Shown here piece after piece: positions 6,819-44,124 of a stretch of 48,779 nucleotides of DNA; position 1 is the stretch's first letter, and every line of letters begins with the position of its first letter. Under the pieces are notes generated by a model, which had not been told where the DNA came from, did no database searches, and was given only the letters and a program-made list of their open reading frames with translations. This DNA comes from a virus: positions 1-48,779 of the IMG/VR virus record IMGVR_UViG_3300025853_000145; one strand, 5' to 3'. Made by a program: the position numbers and the translations under genes.

Positions 6819-7469
6819 ATGAAACTCATCAGAGAAGAAATCGAAACCGTTGACTTCATTATAGAAGAAAACAACGGTAAAAAGTCCATGTTTATTGAGG
6901 GTATCTTTCTTCAAGGAGACCTTCAAAATAGAAATGGTCGTATGTATCCAATGAGTACTCTCCGTAAGGAAGTTCAAAGATACAACGAAAATCATATTCA
7001 GTCGGGAAGAGCTTTAGGAGAACTTGGTCATCCTGATGGACCTACTGTTAATCTCGACAGAGTTTCTCATAAAATTGTTTCACTGAAAGAAAGTGGAAAC
7101 AATTTTATCGGAAAGGCAAAGATTCTCAATACACCTATGGGTAAGATTGCAGAATCACTTATTTCAGAGGGTGTAAAACTTGGTGTTTCATCAAGAGGCA
7201 TTGGGTCATTGAGAGCCACAAGAGAGGGTGTCAATATTGTTGGTGATGATTTTATGTTGTCAACAGCAGCTGATATCGTAGCTGATCCTTCTGCTCCTGA
7301 TGCATTTGTTGAAGGAATTATGGAAGGTAAAGAGTGGATATGGGAAGGAGGAATTCTGAGAGAACAACTGGCTAAGAAGACTTACAAACATATTAACACT
7401 CTTGTCACTCAAAAACAACTTGATGAACAGAAACTTGATTTATTTAATGACTTTTTAAATAATCTTTAA
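6819..7469 (+). CDS. gp21: Prohead core protease gp21
   Basis: Serine protease that matures the prohead by cutting scaffold, capsid and internal proteins; 216 residues, close to T4 gp21 (212). It has the herpes-protease-like U9/S78 layout: FIEGIFLQGDLQNRNGRMYP near the N-terminus, the catalytic His71 in LGELGHPDG, and the catalytic Ser at 124/125 in LGVSSRGIGS. The lost tail after residue 180 probably acts as the propeptide. Its cleavage consensus in T4, (L/I)-x-E before the scissile bond, is relevant to the packaged proteins near 40-43 kb. It lies between the core gene and scaffold gp22, as expected. Confidence 0.95.
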   Translation: MKLIREEIETVDFIIEENNGKKSMFIEGIFLQGDLQNRNGRMYPMSTLRKEVQRYNENHIQSGRALGELGHPDGPTVNLDRVSHKIVSLKESGNNFIGKAKILNTPMGKIAESLISEGVKLGVSSRGIGSLRATREGVNIVGDDFMLSTAADIVADPSAPDAFVEGIMEGKEWIWEGGILREQLAKKTYKHINTLVTQKQLDEQKLDLFNDFLNNL

Positions 7470-7534: not shown

Positions 7535-8587
7535 ATGTCTCGTGGAGATTTACAAGAAATGGAGCAATCTAAAACTGCTGTGAACGCGAACGCAAAACCA
7601 GCTGAGCCAATGCAGCACGTCGATAACGTAACACCTGGTCAATCAGGTTCTTATGAAGATTTGGGTGGACCAACACCTGAAAACTATAGACCTGATGATG
7701 ATTCAGCAAAACTTAATGAGCCTAAGATTAAGACCGTTAAGGACGTTGTGAATCGTGGGGCTAAGCCAGCTGAACCAATGAAGACTACCAAAGAAGAAAC
7801 TGAAACCGAAGAAGAAGTTATCGAAGAGGAAACTCTCGAAACTGAATCTGAAGTTGAAGAGTCTATCGATATTGAAGAAGATGTTAACGCACTTCTTGGT
7901 GGTGAAGAACTCTCCGAAGAGTTCAGAGAAAAGGCTAAGATTATTTTTGAAGCGGCTCTGAATTCTAAAATCAAAGAAATCCAAGAAACTCTTGAAGTTC
8001 AGTACGAAGAAAAACTGGACGAAGCAAAAGAGGGACTTAAAGAGTCTTTGACCGAAAGAGTTGACGCATATCTCGAATACGTCTGTGAAGAATGGATGAC
8101 CGAGAATGAGTTAGCTGTAGAACATGGTCTTAAGACCGAAATGACCGAATCATTCCTTTCAGGAATGAAGGGTCTTTTTGAAGAACATTATGTAACAATC
8201 CCTGAAGAGAAATATGATGTAGTTGAGAGCATGGTAGAAAAACTTGATGATATGGAGACAAAACTCAACGAGCAGATTGAGAAGAATATTGGACTGAACA
8301 AGAGACTCGCTGAGTCTGTTGCAGACAATATCTTAGATCAGATTTCTGAAGGTCTCGCAGAGACACAGAAAGAGAAGCTCGCTTCACTTGCCGAAAGTGT
8401 TGAGTTTGAAAGTGAAGAAGAATATCGTGAAAAGCTGGAAACTCTGAAGGAGTCATACTTCTCCAGAACTCCCGCAAATAAGTCTGAAGCACCACAAACA
8501 CTCTCAGAAGGAGTAGATTCTACTCCAGCTCCTGTTTCTACCGGCATGGATGCGTATCTGAGAACCTTAGGTGCATTCAAGAAGTGA
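7535..8587 (+). CDS. gp22: Prohead scaffold core protein gp22
   Basis: Major internal scaffold of the prohead, removed by gp21; 350 residues, longer than T4 gp22 (269). It has a Pro/Asn-rich head (about residues 1-90), then a very acidic stretch (about 85-125, Glu-rich) and long alpha-helical coiled segments to about residue 320. Inside is the motif VDAYLEYVCEEWMTENELAVEHGLKTEMTESFLSGMKGLFEEH, which is highly typical of marine T4-like gp22. The C-terminus MDAYLRTLGAFKK is the conserved capsid-contact tail. It lies directly upstream of gp23. Confidence 0.95.
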   Translation: MSRGDLQEMEQSKTAVNANAKPAEPMQHVDNVTPGQSGSYEDLGGPTPENYRPDDDSAKLNEPKIKTVKDVVNRGAKPAEPMKTTKEETETEEEVIEEETLETESEVEESIDIEEDVNALLGGEELSEEFREKAKIIFEAALNSKIKEIQETLEVQYEEKLDEAKEGLKESLTERVDAYLEYVCEEWMTENELAVEHGLKTEMTESFLSGMKGLFEEHYVTIPEEKYDVVESMVEKLDDMETKLNEQIEKNIGLNKRLAESVADNILDQISEGLAETQKEKLASLAESVEFESEEEYREKLETLKESYFSRTPANKSEAPQTLSEGVDSTPAPVSTGMDAYLRTLGAFKK

Positions 8588-14195: not shown

Positions 14196-14726
14196 ATGGC
14201 TAATCAATATCCTGCTGAGAGTAAAAAGAACAGAGACCAAGCAATATCAGAGGGGAAGAAGAGATACCTCTCTGCCACTCCATGTAAGAAATGTGGAACA
14301 TATGAGAGGTATGTTTCAACTTATGGTTGCTGTAAGTGTGTGGTGGAAGCAGGATTAAAGAAACTTGCTGATAAGGAGTTGATGGCACCTTATAGAACAA
14401 AGGAGAATCAATTAAAGAAACAAAAAGCCTGGAGGGAAAAGAACTACGAAAAGTATCAACAACAGTGGTTGAGGGTACCCAAAGAGAAAGTAAACGCCAG
14501 AGCAGCAAATAGGAGAGCGAAGGTGAGAAACCAAACTCCAGACCTGACTGAAGCAGAAAAGGATGTTATACTGGAGTTATATGCTGAAGCAAAACGATTG
14601 ACTGAAGAGACAGGCATTCCCTATGAGGTCGATCATATTATTCCAATATGTAAGGGCGGACTTCATCACCCAGACAATCTACAAGTAATTACTCAAAAAG
14701 AAAATAGGAAAAAAGGAGGAAAATGA
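14196..14726 (+). CDS. HNH homing endonuclease (free-standing)
   Basis: 176 residues. The N-terminal zinc module has CxxC pairs (CKKC, then CCKC) at about residues 29-50. A highly basic linker follows (KKQKAWREKNYEKYQQQW...). A C-terminal HNH domain has the motif VDHIIPICKGGLHHPDNLQVIT near residues 144-165 (catalytic His in DHI, Asn in DNL). It is inserted between the gene after gp55 and gp47. Its last four bases overlap the gp47 start (ATGA), so it is inserted tightly without disrupting the neighbour. It is likely a mobile selfish gene. Confidence 0.93.
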   Translation: MANQYPAESKKNRDQAISEGKKRYLSATPCKKCGTYERYVSTYGCCKCVVEAGLKKLADKELMAPYRTKENQLKKQKAWREKNYEKYQQQWLRVPKEKVNARAANRRAKVRNQTPDLTEAEKDVILELYAEAKRLTEETGIPYEVDHIIPICKGGLHHPDNLQVITQKENRKKGGK

Positions 14727-23300: not shown

Positions 23301-23879
23301 TTATCTGTGTATAACTCTTTTAGGTCTAATTCTATACCAATCTTTATGTTTGGGACTATCAATTCTTTTCCTTACAGATTTTGGTGTTCCTAAGGCTCTG
23401 TAGTATTCTTCTGCTTTTTTTATTGATTGAAACTCTTTTCCTTCACATACTACTGGATACGAGTTGGCCTTTGAAACTTTTTCTCTTGATGATTTAGGTT
23501 GAGTTTTCCCCAACATTCCATATGTTGCATATTCTTCTCTTGGTTTTCTTTTATGATATTCTTTCATTGATTGAATAAAGTTTGGGGAGTTTGATGTATC
23601 TCCTCCCTCTCCACCTTTAGTTAGATTGTAATGAGGTTGTAGTTTTTCAATCCAATACTTTTCTCTATCATCAAGTTCTAATACGGGAACTTCACATTCT
23701 ACAATTTTTATGGTAAAATTATTTTTCCCATATTTCCTAATTGCCTTGTATAAGGGAGTGTTACTTCTTTTGTATGATGACTCGTAGAGATGATTTCTAA
23801 ACCTCTCTTCAATAGTTTTTGTAGTTTTTCCAATATAAAAATTACCATTGATTTCATTGGTTATTTTGTATATAATCAT
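23301..23879 (-). CDS. GIY-YIG homing endonuclease
   Basis: 192 residues, the only minus-strand gene in the window. The catalytic domain opens with IIYKITNEINGNFYIGKT (a YKI / YIG form of GIY-YIG), followed by the conserved Arg in EERFRNH and the Glu in the DREKYWIEKL region. NUMOD3-like repeats (SMKEYHKRKP, GMLGKTQPKSSREKVSKA) and a C-terminal NUMOD1-like helix-turn-helix (FQSIKKAEEYYRALG) would bind DNA. This is the Seg-type architecture of free-standing T4 homing enzymes. It is inserted antiparallel between the AbrB-like gene and gp44, leaving both intact. Confidence 0.93.
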   Translation of the reverse strand: MIIYKITNEINGNFYIGKTTKTIEERFRNHLYESSYKRSNTPLYKAIRKYGKNNFTIKIVECEVPVLELDDREKYWIEKLQPHYNLTKGGEGGDTSNSPNFIQSMKEYHKRKPREEYATYGMLGKTQPKSSREKVSKANSYPVVCEGKEFQSIKKAEEYYRALGTPKSVRKRIDSPKHKDWYRIRPKRVIHR

Positions 23880-36887: not shown

Positions 36888-38369
36888 ATGTCTGCAGATC
36901 TTCGTGGTATTCTTGAAGCCTATAGTGCTGTCTATGACAACGATGTAAAAGAAACTCTGAATTCATTTCATGATGAAGTTACAGACATGGATCTCTCACT
37001 GATTAGTGAAAGAGAATTATCTGATATTGCAGAGGAAGCACTTCAGGAACTTTTTGAAGAAGGATATTCATTGTTTGAATCGGAGATCATTCTTGAGGAT
37101 GTGATTGTTGAAGCTAGTTCTTATATGACCGCTATGATGAAAGGTCAGAATAAGTATAGAAAACAACAGAAGAGGCAAGAAAAGATTGATAGGGTTAAGG
37201 GTGCTATCAAGGGTGCCCTTGATACGGCAAAGATGAAAGCATCTACTGGAGCTGTTAAGGCATACGGAGCTTACAGAAAGGCTAAACAAGCAGCTGATGA
37301 TAAAGCTAGAAGAACATCTCAAACCGCTAAGAATGTTTCAGCACAAACTTCTAGAAAGGCTTCTGAGGCTAAGGCTCAAGTTAAGTCTGGACTGAAAGGA
37401 ATGATTCGTAAGGCAGCTGAGAGAGTTGCTTCTGGAGCTTCTAAAGTTGCTAAGAGAATGACTGAAGGTAAAGATTCTTCATATCTTGAGACAGATATGA
37501 AGAAGAGGCAGGAGAATAACGAGAAGGCTCGTAAGGAAATGGCAAAGGTGAAGGGTCAGAAGAACCCACATTTTGAAGAAGTATCACAAATCCGTAAGGG
37601 TTGGGGTGATGCTTACAGATCCATCTATGAGAAGAAGCTTGACCCCGTAGGTAAGGAAGATGGTGATGTAGACAATGATGGTGACGAGGATTCTTCAGAC
37701 GAGTATCTGATGAAGCGTCGTAAGGCCATTGGTAAGGCAATGGGTAAGAAGAAAGAGAAAGTTGAAGAGGGTATGAAGCCTTATCCTGCTGAGAAAGTTG
37801 CCCGTAAGCGTGAAGCAGTTAAGAAGAAGGAAGACATCCACGTTGCACGTGGTGAATACGACCAGGCAGACAAGCAGTATAAGCGTGGTGTTGCTCTTGC
37901 CTTCAAGAAAAAGATGAAGAATGAAGAGTTTGAAGACTTTGATCAGATGTTTGATTCTCTGATTGAAGAGGGTTATACAAAGTCTGAAGCTCTTCAGATC
38001 ATGACTCAGATAGCACTTGATGAGGATTCACGTCGTACCAGTAATAAACAACAAACTGCTCGTGTAAAGGCTAACATTAAGTCTTTTGGAAGTAACTATA
38101 CTCCTCCTAGTAATTATGATCCTGATGCTAATCGTGGTCAAGGAGAAGTTGTTACTCGTAAACAGATGGAGAAGAAGCGTCGTAAAGCACTTCGTCAAGA
38201 AGATTATGTAAATGAAGCACAAGCAGCAAGAAACAACCCTGAAAAGTATGAGAGAGAGCAGGCAAAGAAATCTGCTCCTGTTCGTGGAGAAAGAACTCCT
38301 ATGCCACCAAGAGGTGATAAGCGTAGAGAGGACTTTGAGAAGTGGTATGCTAAACAGATGGGTCGCTGA
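36888..38369 (+). CDS. Large charged virion-type protein with EF-hand-like loop
   Basis: 493 residues. The N-terminal 80 residues are acidic and helical. A long Lys/Ala-rich helical region follows (about 90-215, KGAIKGALDTAKMKAS...AYRKAKQAADDKARR), resembling a DNA-binding or internal head protein. At about 255-275, DPVGKEDGDVDNDGDEDSSDEY contains an EF-hand type calcium loop (D-x-D-x-D-G). The C-terminal half is basic and repeats the RKAIGKAMGKKKEKVEEGM style. It has a late promoter and its own terminator. A structural or DNA-condensing role is inferred; I cannot equate it with a T4 gene. Confidence 0.8.
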   Translation: MSADLRGILEAYSAVYDNDVKETLNSFHDEVTDMDLSLISERELSDIAEEALQELFEEGYSLFESEIILEDVIVEASSYMTAMMKGQNKYRKQQKRQEKIDRVKGAIKGALDTAKMKASTGAVKAYGAYRKAKQAADDKARRTSQTAKNVSAQTSRKASEAKAQVKSGLKGMIRKAAERVASGASKVAKRMTEGKDSSYLETDMKKRQENNEKARKEMAKVKGQKNPHFEEVSQIRKGWGDAYRSIYEKKLDPVGKEDGDVDNDGDEDSSDEYLMKRRKAIGKAMGKKKEKVEEGMKPYPAEKVARKREAVKKKEDIHVARGEYDQADKQYKRGVALAFKKKMKNEEFEDFDQMFDSLIEEGYTKSEALQIMTQIALDEDSRRTSNKQQTARVKANIKSFGSNYTPPSNYDPDANRGQGEVVTRKQMEKKRRKALRQEDYVNEAQAARNNPEKYEREQAKKSAPVRGERTPMPPRGDKRREDFEKWYAKQMGR

Positions 38370-38541: not shown

Positions 38542-39942
38542 ATGGCAACTCTTTCTGAAGTATTACTTGCTGTTAATAAAGTTACTCAAGATTTGGGAAT
38601 AACTGAACCTAAAGTAGATGCTACTGCTAGATTGACTAAAATTGTAATTAATGTTGATGATAGAGTTTCTGCTAGATCGGATATGGTGGATGCTTTAAAG
38701 GCATCTGGATTAAAGCAGGGTCCTAATAGTAAAGATGCCAAGGTTAATTTTGGCAGTTATGATTTTGTTATTAGTAAGATACCAGAATCCACTTTTGATG
38801 GTATTCAAATTAAAGAGACTTCAAAATCGGTTATAAGGTATATTTTTAAAGGAAAAAAGGGTGGTTCTGGCGCAGGTGCTACGGAAACTAAAAAGTTTGA
38901 GTGTGGTCAAGCAGTATATGCTGCTATTGCTTTTATGAAGGGAGGTAAAATAACCTCCTCAGATTTTAATGAAGAAAATATTAAATCTGCAAGTAGTATG
39001 TATGATATTGATGATACAATTGCAAACATCAAAACTTTAAGTGATGAATGGCATGAATCATGTGTGAAAGGTGCAAATGAACTGTGGGAAAAATTTAGTG
39101 AACTAAAAAATAAAGGAGTCAAGTTTCATAGAGGTGGAGCAGAAGTAAAATATATTGAGGATGCTTTTAAAAGAGTTAAGAGTGCGGAGAAAGTGAGAAT
39201 TGATATTAATAAGTGGTCTCCTGCAGACATTTATGTTACTACCAAAAATTATAAACATAAGTGTTTGGATGAAGAGAATACTTTGAAAGGATTGAATCAA
39301 TGTATGATGCATAGATTAATTGGTGAGGGTCAAGGTCCAATAATGTTTGGAGTATCTCTTAAAAAAATTACTGAAAATGCAAAACTATCAACTAAAAATG
39401 TAGATCCAAAAACTGCAAGAGATCATACCTTTGAGAATTTTAATAGGAAAGGTATAGTTGGTGCGGATCTTTATATGAAGTTTAAACCTAATGTTGAGAT
39501 TCAATTTAGAAGTTTTGATGGACCAAAGGCTACCACTGGATTTCAAGGTGAAGTAAAAGGTGCGAGTGCAAACCAGGGAAAGGTTGGTTTAGGTTCTCTT
39601 AATTTAATTTTAAAATTACATGATCTTGATCAAGTGCCAGATGTTAGACCAATTATTAATCGTGGTGGTGCTGCTAGACAAACTTTGGAATCAAATGTTA
39701 AAGAACTTATAGAAAAAACATCACCTGGATTTACTGAAAAGAAATATACGGAAGTGATTCAAAATAAAGTGAAAAAAGGAGAACTAGAGGGTTTTCTTTA
39801 CGCAATGGGGTCAAATTATTATCTTTATAAAATCATTACTGGAATATCGAATAATGATAAAAGAAATCAAGTTTGTGAAGATCTTCTCTTATATGCTTCT
39901 TCACAATCAGTCATTTCTGCACCTTATTATAAGTTAGAATAA
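38542..39942 (+). CDS. Unknown protein, faintly PD-(D/E)XK nuclease-like
   Basis: 466 residues. RIDINKWSPADIYV near residue 218-231 and GPIMFGVSLKK near 264-274 form a D...S-L-K-K arrangement. It recalls PD-(D/E)XK nucleases of the N-K-W-x-P-x-D-I type, though I cannot verify the fold. The rest is a mixed alpha/beta sequence with VEIQFRSFDGPKATTGFQGEVKGASANQGKVGLG in the last third. It lacks the capsid-targeting N-terminus of the next genes. AT-rich codon use differs from the Lys-rich gene before it. A virion or accessory role is inferred from position only. Confidence 0.78.
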   Translation: MATLSEVLLAVNKVTQDLGITEPKVDATARLTKIVINVDDRVSARSDMVDALKASGLKQGPNSKDAKVNFGSYDFVISKIPESTFDGIQIKETSKSVIRYIFKGKKGGSGAGATETKKFECGQAVYAAIAFMKGGKITSSDFNEENIKSASSMYDIDDTIANIKTLSDEWHESCVKGANELWEKFSELKNKGVKFHRGGAEVKYIEDAFKRVKSAEKVRIDINKWSPADIYVTTKNYKHKCLDEENTLKGLNQCMMHRLIGEGQGPIMFGVSLKKITENAKLSTKNVDPKTARDHTFENFNRKGIVGADLYMKFKPNVEIQFRSFDGPKATTGFQGEVKGASANQGKVGLGSLNLILKLHDLDQVPDVRPIINRGGAARQTLESNVKELIEKTSPGFTEKKYTEVIQNKVKKGELEGFLYAMGSNYYLYKIITGISNNDKRNQVCEDLLLYASSQSVISAPYYKLE

Positions 39943-39952
39943 TAACTAAATA

Positions 39953-39959
39953 ATAAATA
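39953..39959 (+). promoter_or_regulatory. Late promoter AATAAATA
   Basis: ATAAATA preceded by A, 17 bases before the ATG of the minigene at 39976 and about 90 before the large HNH protein at 40052. Confidence 0.6.
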
Positions 39960-39975
39960 AGGACTAATAATATAA

Positions 39976-40044
39976 ATGAAAAGTTTTCTACAGTTTCTAA
40001 AAGAATCAGGTGAAGGTGACTCATTACAGGTAAACCAATTGTAA
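39976..40044 (+). CDS. 22-codon minigene encoding only a capsid-targeting-like sequence
   Basis: MKSFLQFLKESGEGDSLQVNQL. The first eleven residues match the form of the T4 internal-protein targeting sequence (MKTYQEFIAEA) and include L-K-E before Ser, a gp21-type cleavage site. The frame stops right after. It could be a translated leader peptide or the leftover start of a replaced packaged protein. Late promoter directly upstream. Confidence 0.45.
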   Translation: MKSFLQFLKESGEGDSLQVNQL

Positions 40045-40051
40045 AGATATG

Positions 40052-42079
40052 ATGGATGTTTTTAAATATTTAAAAAACGTTAATACATTACTTGAGGCTA
40101 GTGCAGCTGACCAGGCTCGTGAAATGGGTTTGGAATATGCTGGTTATGGAAAATGGAGAGATCCAAGAACTGGAAAAGTAACTCATAAGAGTACTAAGAG
40201 TGGTGGTCAGACTACTCTTGAAAAACTTGATGCATCAGAAGAACCCAAACAACAACCTACTCAACAAGAACCTCAACAACAAACATTTTCTCAATTCAAA
40301 CAGATAACTCAACAACAGGCACAACCTGAACCTCCTGTAGGTGATCAGATGAATAGGGTAGTACCTGGTGGTCCTTCTGAAACTACTTTGACAAGTGGAG
40401 ACAAAAAAGAAGTAGTAAAACAACTCTCTCGTGGTCGTGGGAATGTCATGAGTCCTGCGAGAAAGAAACAGATTTCTCAACAGGCTGATGATATGATTAC
40501 AAAAGATGAGCCTCAGATAGAACCGGAGGATGAGACTCAAGAACCAGAAGGTCTTGATGATTTACTCTCTGATATTAGAGGTGAAGAAACACCTAAAGAT
40601 GAATCAGAGTTTAAAACTCTTGATGATGTTGTATCAGAAACTCAGGATGATATTGATTATACTAATGATGATGAGGCATTTGATAGTGAATATGAAGAAT
40701 TCACTAAAGAAGCTGAGATTATGATGAAGGCTCTAGCCGATCGTCAGAGAAAGATGATGGAGAAAAAGTTTACAAAGTTCCAAGAATCTTTGTCTACCAT
40801 TCCAAGTGCAACTGATAAGAGATCATTTCTTAAGTCAATGGCACATGCAAAGACATTTGAAGGAAGAGTGAATTCTGGTGCAGGTAAGAATAATTTAGGG
40901 TATGCTGATGTTCAAAACCTTATGGCAAATCGTGATCGTTTATTGGAGGGTTATGGTGATGGATCTCCAGAACAGATCAAAAAGTTTGTTGATTCTGTAA
41001 GATCCAATAAGGTATCTGATGAGTTTGTTAGTGCATCCTTTGATATTCTTCCTGATTCATTTAAGAAGTCTTTGAGTGGTAAGGGTCAGGTGACTAATGA
41101 TAAGTATGTGTCAGATGATAAGGCACATAAAGACATGCACTATCTTGGCAGAAATGAAGATGGGACAGTAAGACGAGGTGCAGCTAATAATAAGGATAGA
41201 GCAAAGTTAATGTGGCGTATTTACCTTGAACAGGGTGGTCGTGATGCATACACTGGTCTTCCTCTTGATCTTCAAGCCATGGACTTAGAACATGTTCGTG
41301 GTTTTAACAATAAAGATGGTGGTGCACCAGGTAAAGAGGAGTGGGAACAGAGAGAAAATGATGATAACTTTACTCTAATCAACTCAAATATCAACCAGAA
41401 GAAAGTTGATATGTCGATGAAAGACTTCTTTGAAAAAGAAGTTGATGTTCATAAGGATAAATCGGAGGAAGATTTTGGTGGTATCGAGAAGTTATTTGAA
41501 AAACAAAATCAAATAGGTGATGTAGGTGATCAACTCGTGAAGACACTTCTTGGTGAAGGTGGTAAAGGTCTCGGTGACGGAGTAACTAGAGAAATCTTAC
41601 AAGAACACTTTGGTGAAGATGATGGAAGATATACAAGTCTAAGAGAAGAGTTTCGTAAAGTTGCAACGGATCCAAAGGATAAGAAGAAAGCGGCAGGTAT
41701 GAAATCTAAACTTGGTAAACAATTACTTAAAGCTGCAGGATTGAGCAGAGGTATTACTGATAAGTCTGGAAGAAGGACGATTGCTCTTCAAGAAAATGTA
41801 TATCGTGGGTTCTTACAGTCCATGGCTAATGCAAAACCAAAAGATAGAAAAAGATATATGGATGGTTGGGCAGAAGCAATTGCTTCTGGTAATCAGGAAA
41901 GATCACCAAAGGCTGTCAATAAAAAATTGATTGAACTTGGTCTTATTGATCAGGATATTCTTGACGATAGGAAGGCTGGTAAGGTCTTTAAGGAAGAGTA
42001 TGAGACAGTTAAAAGAGTGTCCACTACTTATGGAAAGTCTTTTCTTTCCAAGTATAATAAGAACAATAGATTCGTATAA
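40052..42079 (+). CDS. Predicted virion-packaged HNH endonuclease-domain protein
   Basis: 675 residues from ATG 40052; ATG 40049 is equally possible. The N-terminus MDVFKYLKNVNTLLEA has the form of a capsid-targeting sequence with L-L-E before Ala, a gp21 cleavage pattern. A module follows (AREMGLEYAGYGKWRDPRTGKVT) that recurs in the next gene. Then comes a Gln/Pro/Glu-rich low-complexity region (about 60-220), a helical part, and an HNH nuclease domain at about 385-450 with DAYTGLPLD, LEHV and DDNFTLINSNINQKK. The C-terminus is basic and helical. It may be carried in the head and injected. Confidence 0.82.
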   Translation: MDVFKYLKNVNTLLEASAADQAREMGLEYAGYGKWRDPRTGKVTHKSTKSGGQTTLEKLDASEEPKQQPTQQEPQQQTFSQFKQITQQQAQPEPPVGDQMNRVVPGGPSETTLTSGDKKEVVKQLSRGRGNVMSPARKKQISQQADDMITKDEPQIEPEDETQEPEGLDDLLSDIRGEETPKDESEFKTLDDVVSETQDDIDYTNDDEAFDSEYEEFTKEAEIMMKALADRQRKMMEKKFTKFQESLSTIPSATDKRSFLKSMAHAKTFEGRVNSGAGKNNLGYADVQNLMANRDRLLEGYGDGSPEQIKKFVDSVRSNKVSDEFVSASFDILPDSFKKSLSGKGQVTNDKYVSDDKAHKDMHYLGRNEDGTVRRGAANNKDRAKLMWRIYLEQGGRDAYTGLPLDLQAMDLEHVRGFNNKDGGAPGKEEWEQRENDDNFTLINSNINQKKVDMSMKDFFEKEVDVHKDKSEEDFGGIEKLFEKQNQIGDVGDQLVKTLLGEGGKGLGDGVTREILQEHFGEDDGRYTSLREEFRKVATDPKDKKKAAGMKSKLGKQLLKAAGLSRGITDKSGRRTIALQENVYRGFLQSMANAKPKDRKRYMDGWAEAIASGNQERSPKAVNKKLIELGLIDQDILDDRKAGKVFKEEYETVKRVSTTYGKSFLSKYNKNNRFV

Positions 42080-42085
42080 TAAATA
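42079..42085 (+). promoter_or_regulatory. Late promoter ATAAATA
   Basis: The motif overlaps the end of the HNH-domain gene and lies 22 bases before the ATG at 42107. Confidence 0.6.
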
Positions 42086-42106
42086 TTATTATAAGATAAT
42101 AGAGTA

Positions 42107-43393
42107 ATGAAAAATTTCTTCAACTTTTTAAGTGAAGCACGTAAAACCAAAGCTTCTGAAAAAGCAAGACAACTTGGTTTAACTGGTGATGGAAAAGGCA
42201 ACTGGGTCAATAAACTCGGAAATGTTGTAGCCAGAACTGAAGGTGGAGAATTAGTATTTACTCAAAGAAAATCAAAGACGGCTGAAAGAGAATCTTCAAA
42301 GGAAAGTAAGTATAAGACACCAGATCAAGAAACTCAGAAAAAACCATCTAATCCAGAAGATATAAAAAAAGAAAGAGAAGTTGGTGATGAGGAAGAACAA
42401 CAACAAGAAAAGACTGGTGATACTTTGACATTGGTATTTGGCAGATTTAATCCACCTACAGTAGGACATAAAAAACTTTTAGATAACGCAAGACAAGTTG
42501 CATCTGATGGTGATTTGAGAATTTATCCTTCAAGGTCATTCGATCCAAAGAAGAATCCATTGGATCCTGATCAGAAGACGAAGTTAATGAGAAAAATGTT
42601 CCCCGATCATTCTGATAATATAGTTAATGATTCTGGTGTTAGGACTATTTTTGATGCTTTAAAGATTGCTAGTAACGATGGATATTCAAATATCAAGATT
42701 GTAGTAGGATCTGATCGTGTCTCAGAATTTGATAGTTTGGCACAGAAATATAATGGTGAACTCTATAACTTTGATGAGATTGAAACAATTTCTGCAGGTC
42801 AGAGAGATGATGAAGCATCTGATGTTACTGGTATGTCCGCATCTAAGTTGAGAAAGGCTGCGGCTGAGAATGACTTTGAAAGTTTTAGAAAAGGCATTCC
42901 TGATAATATTGATGATAAGACTGCTAAAACCATTATGAATACTGTTCGTAAGGGTATGCAGATTGCAACAGAATCTTGGAGTTTGTGGGAAATTGCTCCT
43001 AAGTTTGATTGGAAGAACTTAAGAGAAAACTATGTAACTGGTAAAATCTTTAAGATGGATCAGTTGGTTGAAAATCTGAATACTGGATTAGTTGGTAAAG
43101 TTATTCGTAGAGGAACCAATTACTTGATTTGTGTGACCGAAGAGGGTATGATGTTTAAGTCTTGGATTCGTGATCTTCGTGAGTACACTGAGGTGAAAAT
43201 GAGTAAGATCGTGAGAACTCCTAATAAACCAAATACTTTGTCTGGAACTAATGGATACTTTAAGTATGCATCTAAGATGACACCTGGATTTGAGAAGGGA
43301 GATAAGACTAATCTTCAAGATGGTGGAAAACCATATAAAGGTCCTAAGACATTTAGGGAGTTTATAAATAAGTATAAGAATAGAAGTATCTGA
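42107..43393 (+). CDS. Predicted virion-packaged nucleotidyltransferase (NMNAT-like)
   Basis: 428 residues. The N-terminus MKNFFNFLSEARKTKASEKARQLGL starts with a T4-like capsid-targeting form and L-S-E before Ala, then the same module as the upstream gene (GDGKGNWVNKLGNVVAR). After a charged linker, a nucleotidyltransferase domain begins near residue 104: TLVFGRFNPPTVGHKKLLDNA holds the HxGH-type motif (T-V-G-H here), with IKIVVGSDRVSEF and GMSASKLRKA (the second phosphate-binding motif) near 242. This is the NMN adenylyltransferase/cytidylyltransferase superfamily. The C-terminal 130 residues hold KxIRRGTNYLICVTEEGMMFKSWIRDL, a beta domain seen in other phage virion proteins. Confidence 0.87.
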   Translation: MKNFFNFLSEARKTKASEKARQLGLTGDGKGNWVNKLGNVVARTEGGELVFTQRKSKTAERESSKESKYKTPDQETQKKPSNPEDIKKEREVGDEEEQQQEKTGDTLTLVFGRFNPPTVGHKKLLDNARQVASDGDLRIYPSRSFDPKKNPLDPDQKTKLMRKMFPDHSDNIVNDSGVRTIFDALKIASNDGYSNIKIVVGSDRVSEFDSLAQKYNGELYNFDEIETISAGQRDDEASDVTGMSASKLRKAAAENDFESFRKGIPDNIDDKTAKTIMNTVRKGMQIATESWSLWEIAPKFDWKNLRENYVTGKIFKMDQLVENLNTGLVGKVIRRGTNYLICVTEEGMMFKSWIRDLREYTEVKMSKIVRTPNKPNTLSGTNGYFKYASKMTPGFEKGDKTNLQDGGKPYKGPKTFREFINKYKNRSI

Positions 43394-43401
43394 CTACTAC
43401 A

Positions 43402-44124
43402 ATGAAAAGAAATTCATATTCAAACTGGAGAGAAGATCTTCGTGAAGTTATGGATACCATTAATCCAGATACTGACGAACCTGAAAGGAGTGTTAAGGAT
43501 AAGAAAGTAAAAAACAAAGTTGTCATCAACCCTGAACTCAAGGAAGCTTTTGAAGGTATTGGTGCAACTGTCCTTGAGGTTTTTGAACTTGATGAAAAGA
43601 TTGATCTTAAAAAAGCTGATATGGGTGACGTTGTAAAAGACTTTTATAAGTCAGATGCTCCTCAGTTCAAAGGTAAGACCAAGAAGGAACGTCAGAAAAT
43701 GGCTATCGCCGCCAAGTTAACTGCAGAACGTGGTGGTAGAAAACTTGGTGAAGAGGCATCAATGTCTCAACAAGAACTCATGCTTCAGAAAAAGAAAGCA
43801 AGAATTGATAAAATGATCGCTATGAGAAGGGAACAAGAATTGAAAAAGTCGAAGAGTGGTGGTCAATCTCAACCTGCAAAGGCAATGGGTGAAGAGTTTT
43901 TTGGGGAAGAAGAATCTGATCGTTTAAAAGATCGTCATCTAGAACGTGGTGGTATGAGTGCTCGTGCCGATTACACTAAACCACCTAAGGGCATAAAGAC
44001 TGGCCCTATGACTGATACTGAAAAAGAAAAATCTAGAAAGGCATCTCAGGCCGCAATGGATTTTGTCAAATCACAGATTAAATCAAAATATGGATCAAAA
44101 TCAATTATTGATACAAAAAAATAA
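43402..44124 (+). CDS. Charged virion-region protein
   Basis: 240 residues, highly charged. MKRNSYSNWREDLREVMD, then VVINPELKEAFEGIGATVLEVFELDEKIDLKKADMGDVVKDFYKSDAPQFKGKTKKERQKMAIAAKLTAERGG, a Lys-rich helix. The block FYKSDAPQFKGKTKKERQKMAIAAKL is a recurrent element in phage structural proteins. The tail is Ser/Lys-rich. It begins nine bases after the nucleotidyltransferase gene and probably shares its late transcript. Function unknown. Confidence 0.8.
   Translation: MKRNSYSNWREDLREVMDTINPDTDEPERSVKDKKVKNKVVINPELKEAFEGIGATVLEVFELDEKIDLKKADMGDVVKDFYKSDAPQFKGKTKKERQKMAIAAKLTAERGGRKLGEEASMSQQELMLQKKKARIDKMIAMRREQELKKSKSGGQSQPAKAMGEEFFGEEESDRLKDRHLERGGMSARADYTKPPKGIKTGPMTDTEKEKSRKASQAAMDFVKSQIKSKYGSKSIIDTKK

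Follow-up and report, generated by a model that had tools for sequence, protein, structure and literature searches.

Predicted capsid-targeting N-termini on an HNH nuclease-like protein and a nucleotidyltransferase of a T4-like cyanophage

Do two adjacent genes of a T4-like cyanophage, one for an HNH nuclease-like protein and one for a nucleotidyltransferase (NT), encode enzymes that travel inside the phage head? The genes lie on IMG/VR record IMGVR_UViG_3300025853_000145, a 48,779-base fragment that was analysed over its full length and is called the window hereafter. Based on the N-termini of both products and on the presence of their relatives in purified particles, we propose that both proteins very probably travel in the virion and are delivered when the phage infects. 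The HNH nuclease-like protein (40052..42079, + strand; phrog_3561, annotated as of unknown function) and the NT (42107..43393, +; phrog_395 and PF01467, the cyanophage core 'cytitidyltransferase' T4-GC190) would thus be internal head proteins of the T4 type, loaded by means of a tag, cut by a gp21-type protease, retained as enzymes alongside the packaged DNA and released at infection. We put the probability of this reading at roughly 0.82.

The NT open reading frame (ORF; 42107-43393) is open over 428 amino acids and starts MKNFFNFLSE|ARKTK, giving a predicted capsid-targeting propeptide MKNFFNFLSE (42107..42136, +) with the predicted cut between E10 and A11. Among 31 sequences, namely the window NT and 30 homologues sharing 39-80% identity with it, F (28) or Y (3) stands at position 4 and I, L or F at position 8, and F7, E10 and A11 are each found in all 31, while positions 3, 5, 6 and 9 vary freely. 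Suppressor genetics of the T4 internal protein IPIII assigned targeting mainly to residues 4 and 7 and processing to residues 8 and 10, and T4 gp21 cleaves after L/I-x-E (PMC9026906); the NT tag matches the key residues of IPIII position for position. Two jumbo-phage NT homologues (Escherichia phage A4 and Pseudomonas phage PA5oct) have no tag and start at or near the catalytic domain, and the tag is therefore an addition rather than a part of the enzyme.

The HNH frame (40049-42079, 676 amino acids) is likewise open, with a first in-frame ATG at 40049 and a second at 40052, and its product starts MMDVFKYLKNVNTLLE|ASAAD. The predicted propeptide MDVFKYLKNVNTLLE (40052..40096, +) would be cut after E15, before A. 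All 22 listed homologue N-termini keep [LI]-x-E, followed by A, S, G, N or D, and E15 is present in 18 of 19 alignment rows and displaced by one in the remaining row. Since the window scaffold protein contains nine [LI]xE[AGSND] sites and LME|T occurs near residue 57 of the capsid protein, it is plausible that the window protease tolerates a loose choice of residue after the cut (P1'). These comparisons support the prediction of T4-type capsid-targeting and prohead-protease signals on both proteins. The first-pass annotation had described the two ORFs with T4-type N-terminal tags, and that description is borne out by open frames and by tag columns that are conserved while neighbouring columns vary; among the cyanophage homologues, conservation extends to the N-termini as well as the catalytic domain.

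Besides the conserved tags, a tag and module that are detachable from the enzymes, and a late-type promoter before the NT gene, the same genome holds a gp21-type prohead protease, the presumed cutter (6819..7469, +; phrog_207, E=2.7e-82; 68% identity with S-CREM2 gp143), and a gp22-type scaffold protein, the presumed tag-binding core (7535..8587, +; phrog_237, E=5.6e-114). What we infer beyond these observations is that the tag binds the scaffold and is cleaved, that the proteins are injected, and that they act as enzymes on targets in the host. The N-terminal 10-15 residues would serve for capsid targeting by binding the prohead scaffold core, and the gp21-type protease would cut after [L/I/F]-x-E while the head matures. 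The mature protein would then start with a module of ~40 residues, with the enzyme (HNH or HxGH-type NT) behind it, and the enzymes would remain in the head beside the DNA and enter the cell upon infection. The likeness to T4 IPI, IPII, IPIII and Alt lies in a short propeptide with aromatics at positions 4 and 7, an [L/I]xE site, late expression and unrelated cargo behind a common tag. In contrast to the T4 proteins, the cargo here is HNH nuclease-like and NT, an additional module is swapped, the phages infect cyanobacteria and cleavage is predicted.

Relatives of both proteins have been detected in purified virions. The NT was found as a citidylyltransferase (T4-GC190) in S-SM1 (PMC3037559) and under the name NMNAT in S-SCSM1, in a study that also cites S-CBWM1 and one more phage (PMC9602691), and S-CREM2 virions yielded 3 peptides for the NT, 21 for a kinase, 19 for a SAM hydrolase and 28 for a 'Cas9' (PMC10665884). 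The virion-detected NTs of S-SM1, S-SCSM1 and S-CREM2 start MKKFSAFLNEA, MKSFLQFLKEA and MKNFSSFLTEA, respectively. The window NT is homologous to this NMNAT-like virion protein over its full length (46% identity to S-SCSM1_91) and occupies the same genomic place; the difference is that the targeting sequence and cut site are not pointed out in the open-access papers searched, among which those joining cyanophages and capsid targeting sequences came to one T4 review only, with no link between the tag and virion enzymes. The S-CREM2 'Cas9', gp12 (L002:7704-10313, - strand), and the window HNH protein both belong to phrog_3561 (E=5.5e-42 and 1.2e-30). They share the tag, the module and the HNH residues and are bridged by an ACG-2014f protein; gp12, itself a virion protein, has a longer N-terminal extension ahead of the tag, matches weakly in the HNH region (pairwise E=5e-5) and is 19% identical overall. 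The annotation of gp12 as CRISPR-associated Cas9 has no Pfam, NCBIfam or PADLOC support and is probably a misannotation arising from its HNH region. With T4-type tags on both proteins and homologues of both in published virion proteomes, the packaging proposed by the first-pass annotation is well supported. S-CREM2 gp6 (L002:3837-5081, -), the virion SAM hydrolase of the S-AdoMet lyase family PF23780, has the tag-like start MKDFDSFLEE and, given this start, may be another packaged counter-restriction enzyme.

How far the motif predicts packaging depends on its length. The short form [LIVMF]xE[AGS] occurs in S-CREM2 at 0.0044 per residue at N-termini and 0.0040 elsewhere, and was rejected as a predictor of virion proteins for want of N-terminal enrichment and of a significant association with virion presence (p=0.08). 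The consensus of L-x-E before a small residue, on which the tags had initially been recognised, is thus not diagnostic, and the HNH family itself has A, S, G, N or D at P1'. The long form F..[FY][LMFIV].E is found within the first 30 residues of 6 of 218 S-CREM2 proteins, ~20 times more commonly than in the rest of these proteins, and five of the six are in the published virion list (p=0.003). Enrichment at N-termini was thus seen only for the longer tag, also written F..F[LMFI].E. A query made of the tag plus the module retrieved 392 phage records, with a coverage of 80% or more of the query in 379.

Several points weigh against the proposal. The long form was chosen after the N-termini of the S-CREM2 virion list had been seen. 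S-SCSM1, with 48 virion-annotated proteins as counted here and 45 per the paper, has two proteins with a strict tag, too few to inform: the NT is virion-annotated and a 106-aa protein starting MKTFKQFMSES is not, so that the association of tag and virion annotation has p=0.31 in S-SCSM1 alone and p=0.001 when pooled. The HNH tag, whose aromatics fall at positions 4 and 6 of a longer N-terminus, is the weaker case for T4-type targeting because its spacing differs from that of IPIII. The virion presence of the window phage's own proteins is read only from the published proteomes of homologues, which belong to relatives of that phage, and co-purification is named as possible by the authors of both the S-CREM2 study, where the NT is represented by 3 peptides only (PMC10665884), and the S-SCSM1 study (PMC9602691). 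Under such carry-over, abundant late cytosolic enzymes would co-purify with virions and the N-terminal segment would be a conserved structural piece with no targeting signal. We consider this very unlikely, as the same tag stands on unrelated bodies (NT, HNH, kinase, SAM lyase-like), the jumbo-phage NTs are tagless, conservation is confined to positions that are important in T4, and the S-CREM2 virion list lacks the replication enzymes of the same phages.

The module behind the predicted cut, A..A..LGL...G.G.W.D..G (hereafter GxW), spans ~40 residues and is common to the HNH, NT and kinase proteins, the S-CREM2 kinase having two copies; no Pfam match was seen over it. It covers ~residues 16-60 of the HNH protein (40097..40231, +), where it was located by a profile search over ORFs, and ~residues 12-55 of the NT (42140..42271, +), with one predicted helix and three strands. 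Identities relative to the window indicate that the module is exchanged independently of the enzyme body: in the related record L081 the body is at 94% and the module at 18%, and in L013 the module is at 82% and the body at 38%. The same start precedes a different HNH body in L017 and, in L018, a body without a known family. In Xanthomonas phage X1 (L087:3983-4510), which has a non-cyanobacterial host, a tag and GxW module (MSFETYLKESAAAEEAHKLGLSAAGYGLWRDKTGK) are found on an unrelated 175-aa protein.

A sign of such swapping is seen in the window. A 22-codon mini-ORF 5' of the HNH gene, MKSFLQFLKESGEGDSLQVNQL (39976..40044, +), is a tag without a body, and positions 39947-40009, which include a promoter and the tag start, share 95.2% identity with the promoter and beginning of the S-SCSM1 NT gene; because of this identity we read the mini-ORF as a recombination scar. 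In L014 the NT is 97% identical and the HNH gene is absent, the segment at ~37.75-42.07 kb being replaced. The NT is therefore best regarded as a core gene and the HNH gene as an accessory cassette, and the view of the two as an injected 'effector pair' was an over-reading, since L014 shows that the pair is not obligate.

The genes also differ in their promoters. A convincing late-promoter-like ATAAATA (42079-42085, +) precedes the NT start by 28 nt, and 34 of 48 NT genes have the motif in the 110 nt before their start, usually at -28/-29. The ATAAATA at 39953-39959 (+) fronts the mini-ORF, 96 nt upstream of the HNH gene, for which it is a doubtful promoter; within 110 nt upstream of HNH homologues the motif is missing in 16 of 22. 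The HNH gene thus probably has no late promoter of its own, and late promoters, initially assigned to both genes, are retained here for the NT gene only. Across the window, the coding strand carries 20 of 22 ATAAATA matches (p=1e-4), and the total of 22 against 16 expected is only modestly above chance.

What kind of enzymes would be delivered? The NT, with relatives in 561 phage records, contains a domain of the HxGH type at ~residues 107-283 (42425..42955, +; FGRFNPPTVGH ... SASKLR), which matches PF01467 (E=1.5e-6, above the cut-off) and has the GxFNP..xGH and SxSxxR motifs of the HxGH-type nucleotidyltransferase fold; HxGH and SxSxxR are invariant in the NT family. In a structural model (mean pLDDT 68, with most of the catalytic domain at 81-92) the fold resembles NadD and CoaD/PPAT to about the same degree, NCBIfam NMNAT models score far under their cut-offs, and a PDB sequence search with the NT gave no match. 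The earlier label 'NMNAT-like' is therefore appropriate for the fold but does not extend to NMNAT activity or NMN specificity, as NadD and CoaD/PPAT fit about equally well.

The HNH core lies at residues 395-456 (41234..41419, +) and comprises DLEH (411-414), N439 and N448. H414, N439 and N448 are invariant across all 23 aligned homologues, at identities down to 19%, and DLEH is kept in all of them but S-CREM2 gp12. The HNH domain named in the first-pass annotation is thus supported by its conserved H and N residues, but a curated profile match is absent: a Pfam search with the window protein itself gave none, and two homologues match HNH_4 (PF13395) at E=4-6e-4, just below the family cut-off. 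A PDB sequence search produced a single chance-level match (E=0.55), a PDB fold search with the model (mean pLDDT 64) no significant match, and a PADLOC search no match. Among predicted viral proteins, this low-confidence model has fold matches in S-CBWM1 and S-TIM5 whose annotation is virion structural. The family may resemble the HNH region of Cas9, but membership in Cas9 was rejected for lack of support from Pfam, NCBIfam and PADLOC.

Phage HNH genes are often mobile, and an accessory cassette would suit a homing-type or DNA-packaging endonuclease that acts in the producing cell and is packaged incidentally. We rate this as the least probable of the explanations considered, given that the predicted cleavable N-terminus is maintained over homologues of 58-81% identity and that gp12, a remote relative, features strongly in S-CREM2 virions. 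The window has two other endonuclease-like genes (23301-23879, -, and 14196-14726, +), which encode a GIY-YIG protein and a small protein whose HNH matches are weak. The linker of the proteins in the HNH slot contains the motif LDDLLSDIR (window 40553-40579), which is also found in L017, L018 and S-CREM2 gp12. In several relatives a sigma-factor-like gene, named by sequence and by ACG-2014f annotation, lies between the HNH gene and the NT gene (L068:8047-8733, L082:7393-8097, L020:3558-4238), a position taken in others by a methyltransferase gene.

The genomic setting is that of virion proteins. Genes for sheath, portal, prohead protease, scaffold and major capsid protein occupy 1.5-10 kb of the window and the late sigma factor gene lies at 13.3 kb, with replication genes beyond it. 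The gene 5' of the HNH gene (38542..39942, +) is a homologue of S-SCSM1_90 (42% identity, E=8e-115) and the gene 3' of the NT gene (43402..44124, +) a partial homologue of S-SCSM1_92 (45% over 64 aa). Window genes 38542, 42107, 43402, 44545 and 45692 are collinear with S-SCSM1_90, 91, 92, 95 and 97, each an annotated virion protein, although the 43402 match is partial and the 45692 match is a 29-residue segment; the HNH gene sits between the counterparts of S-SCSM1_90 and S-SCSM1_91. Such a position, together with the influence of T4 IPIII on head assembly (PMC9026906), would also suit packaged core proteins of a structural or scaffold-associated kind, which would shape the head or the DNA and keep their enzyme folds for binding, without a role in the new host. 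This is unlikely in view of the invariant catalytic residues (H414/N439/N448, and HxGH with SxSxxR), and the absence of the accessory HNH gene from the close relative L014 argues against a core structural role of its product. Two further genes lie nearby. The small protein encoded at 45692-46003 matches phrog_696, has a segment that resembles the major capsid protein near its N-terminus (GGFSGSSNAAGPTAGYDPVM), and also matches the short S-SCSM1_97 and S-CREM2 gp160, both virion-reported. The 36888-38369 protein starts MSADLRGILE|AYSAVY, with a further [LI]xE-A close to the N-terminus, and was compared with the annotated virion protein S-SCSM1_89, whose start is MDSKTFNSLSEAYAAVY; it is possibly an additional packaged protein.

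If the HNH protein is indeed delivered as an internal head protein, what would it act on? The METHYLTRANSFERASE linkage offers a lead. A Dam-type DNA methyltransferase gene lies 48-51 nt downstream of the nuclease gene in L067, L071, L073, L075 and L078, a different Dam-type gene 50 nt downstream in S-H34, and N6_N4-type genes 52 and 881 nt downstream in L018 and L066, while a C5-type gene is found 1.5-4 kb upstream in S-B05, L057-L059, L063 and L081. Taken together, the more distant C5-type and Dam-type genes lie about 0.4-4 kb from the nuclease gene. Overall, a methyltransferase is near the nuclease slot in 16 of 22 records and in 0 of 13 NT records without the nuclease (p=1.9e-5; adequate flanks were judged by hand, and the records are related by descent with phylogeny uncorrected); three Dam matches in nuclease-less records are ~9-11 kb off. 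None of the methyltransferases examined carries a tag. Chloroviruses package a restriction enzyme and not the corresponding methyltransferase, with adjacent genes (PMC7019647).

A narrower form of our proposal, which we advance tentatively and as possible rather than probable, is that the tag and GxW module form an exchangeable enzyme-loading cassette whose HNH cargo would be a packaged restriction-like nuclease, delivered to destroy unmodified DNA, while untagged methyltransferases, of several unrelated families that differ between lineages, would mark and shield the phage genome. The varied methyltransferase families near the nuclease gene and their lack of tags, as in the chlorovirus case, favour it. 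Telling against it are the relatedness of the records and the hand-judged flanks, the commonness of Dam genes among cyanophages, the lack of a PADLOC match for the nuclease, the body without a recognisable HNH in L018 (one of the 22), and the fact that no methyltransferase was seen in the window, in L011 (a 30.6-kb contig of the same phage), in L082 (38 kb) or in L068/L070 (~16 kb). Under this narrower form, the methyltransferase of the window phage would be outside the fragment, or protection would be by other means. The comparison with chlorovirus endonucleases is a functional analogy only: a nuclease predicted to be packaged and, in many relatives, an untagged methyltransferase gene nearby are alike, whereas no homology was found as far as tested and the window is without a methyltransferase.

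Proteome papers have reported an NMNAT-like enzyme, a kinase and a 'Cas9' in cyanophage virions and left undecided whether these are cargo or carry-over, to which a T4-type tag would give a sequence-level answer. The exact predicted N-termini, A11 for the NT and A16 for the HNH protein (counted from the ATG at 40052), can be searched for in existing spectra. The tag would also allow packaged effectors to be predicted across abundant marine phages. Should the association with methyltransferase genes hold up, it would suggest that phages have a restriction strategy based on packaging.

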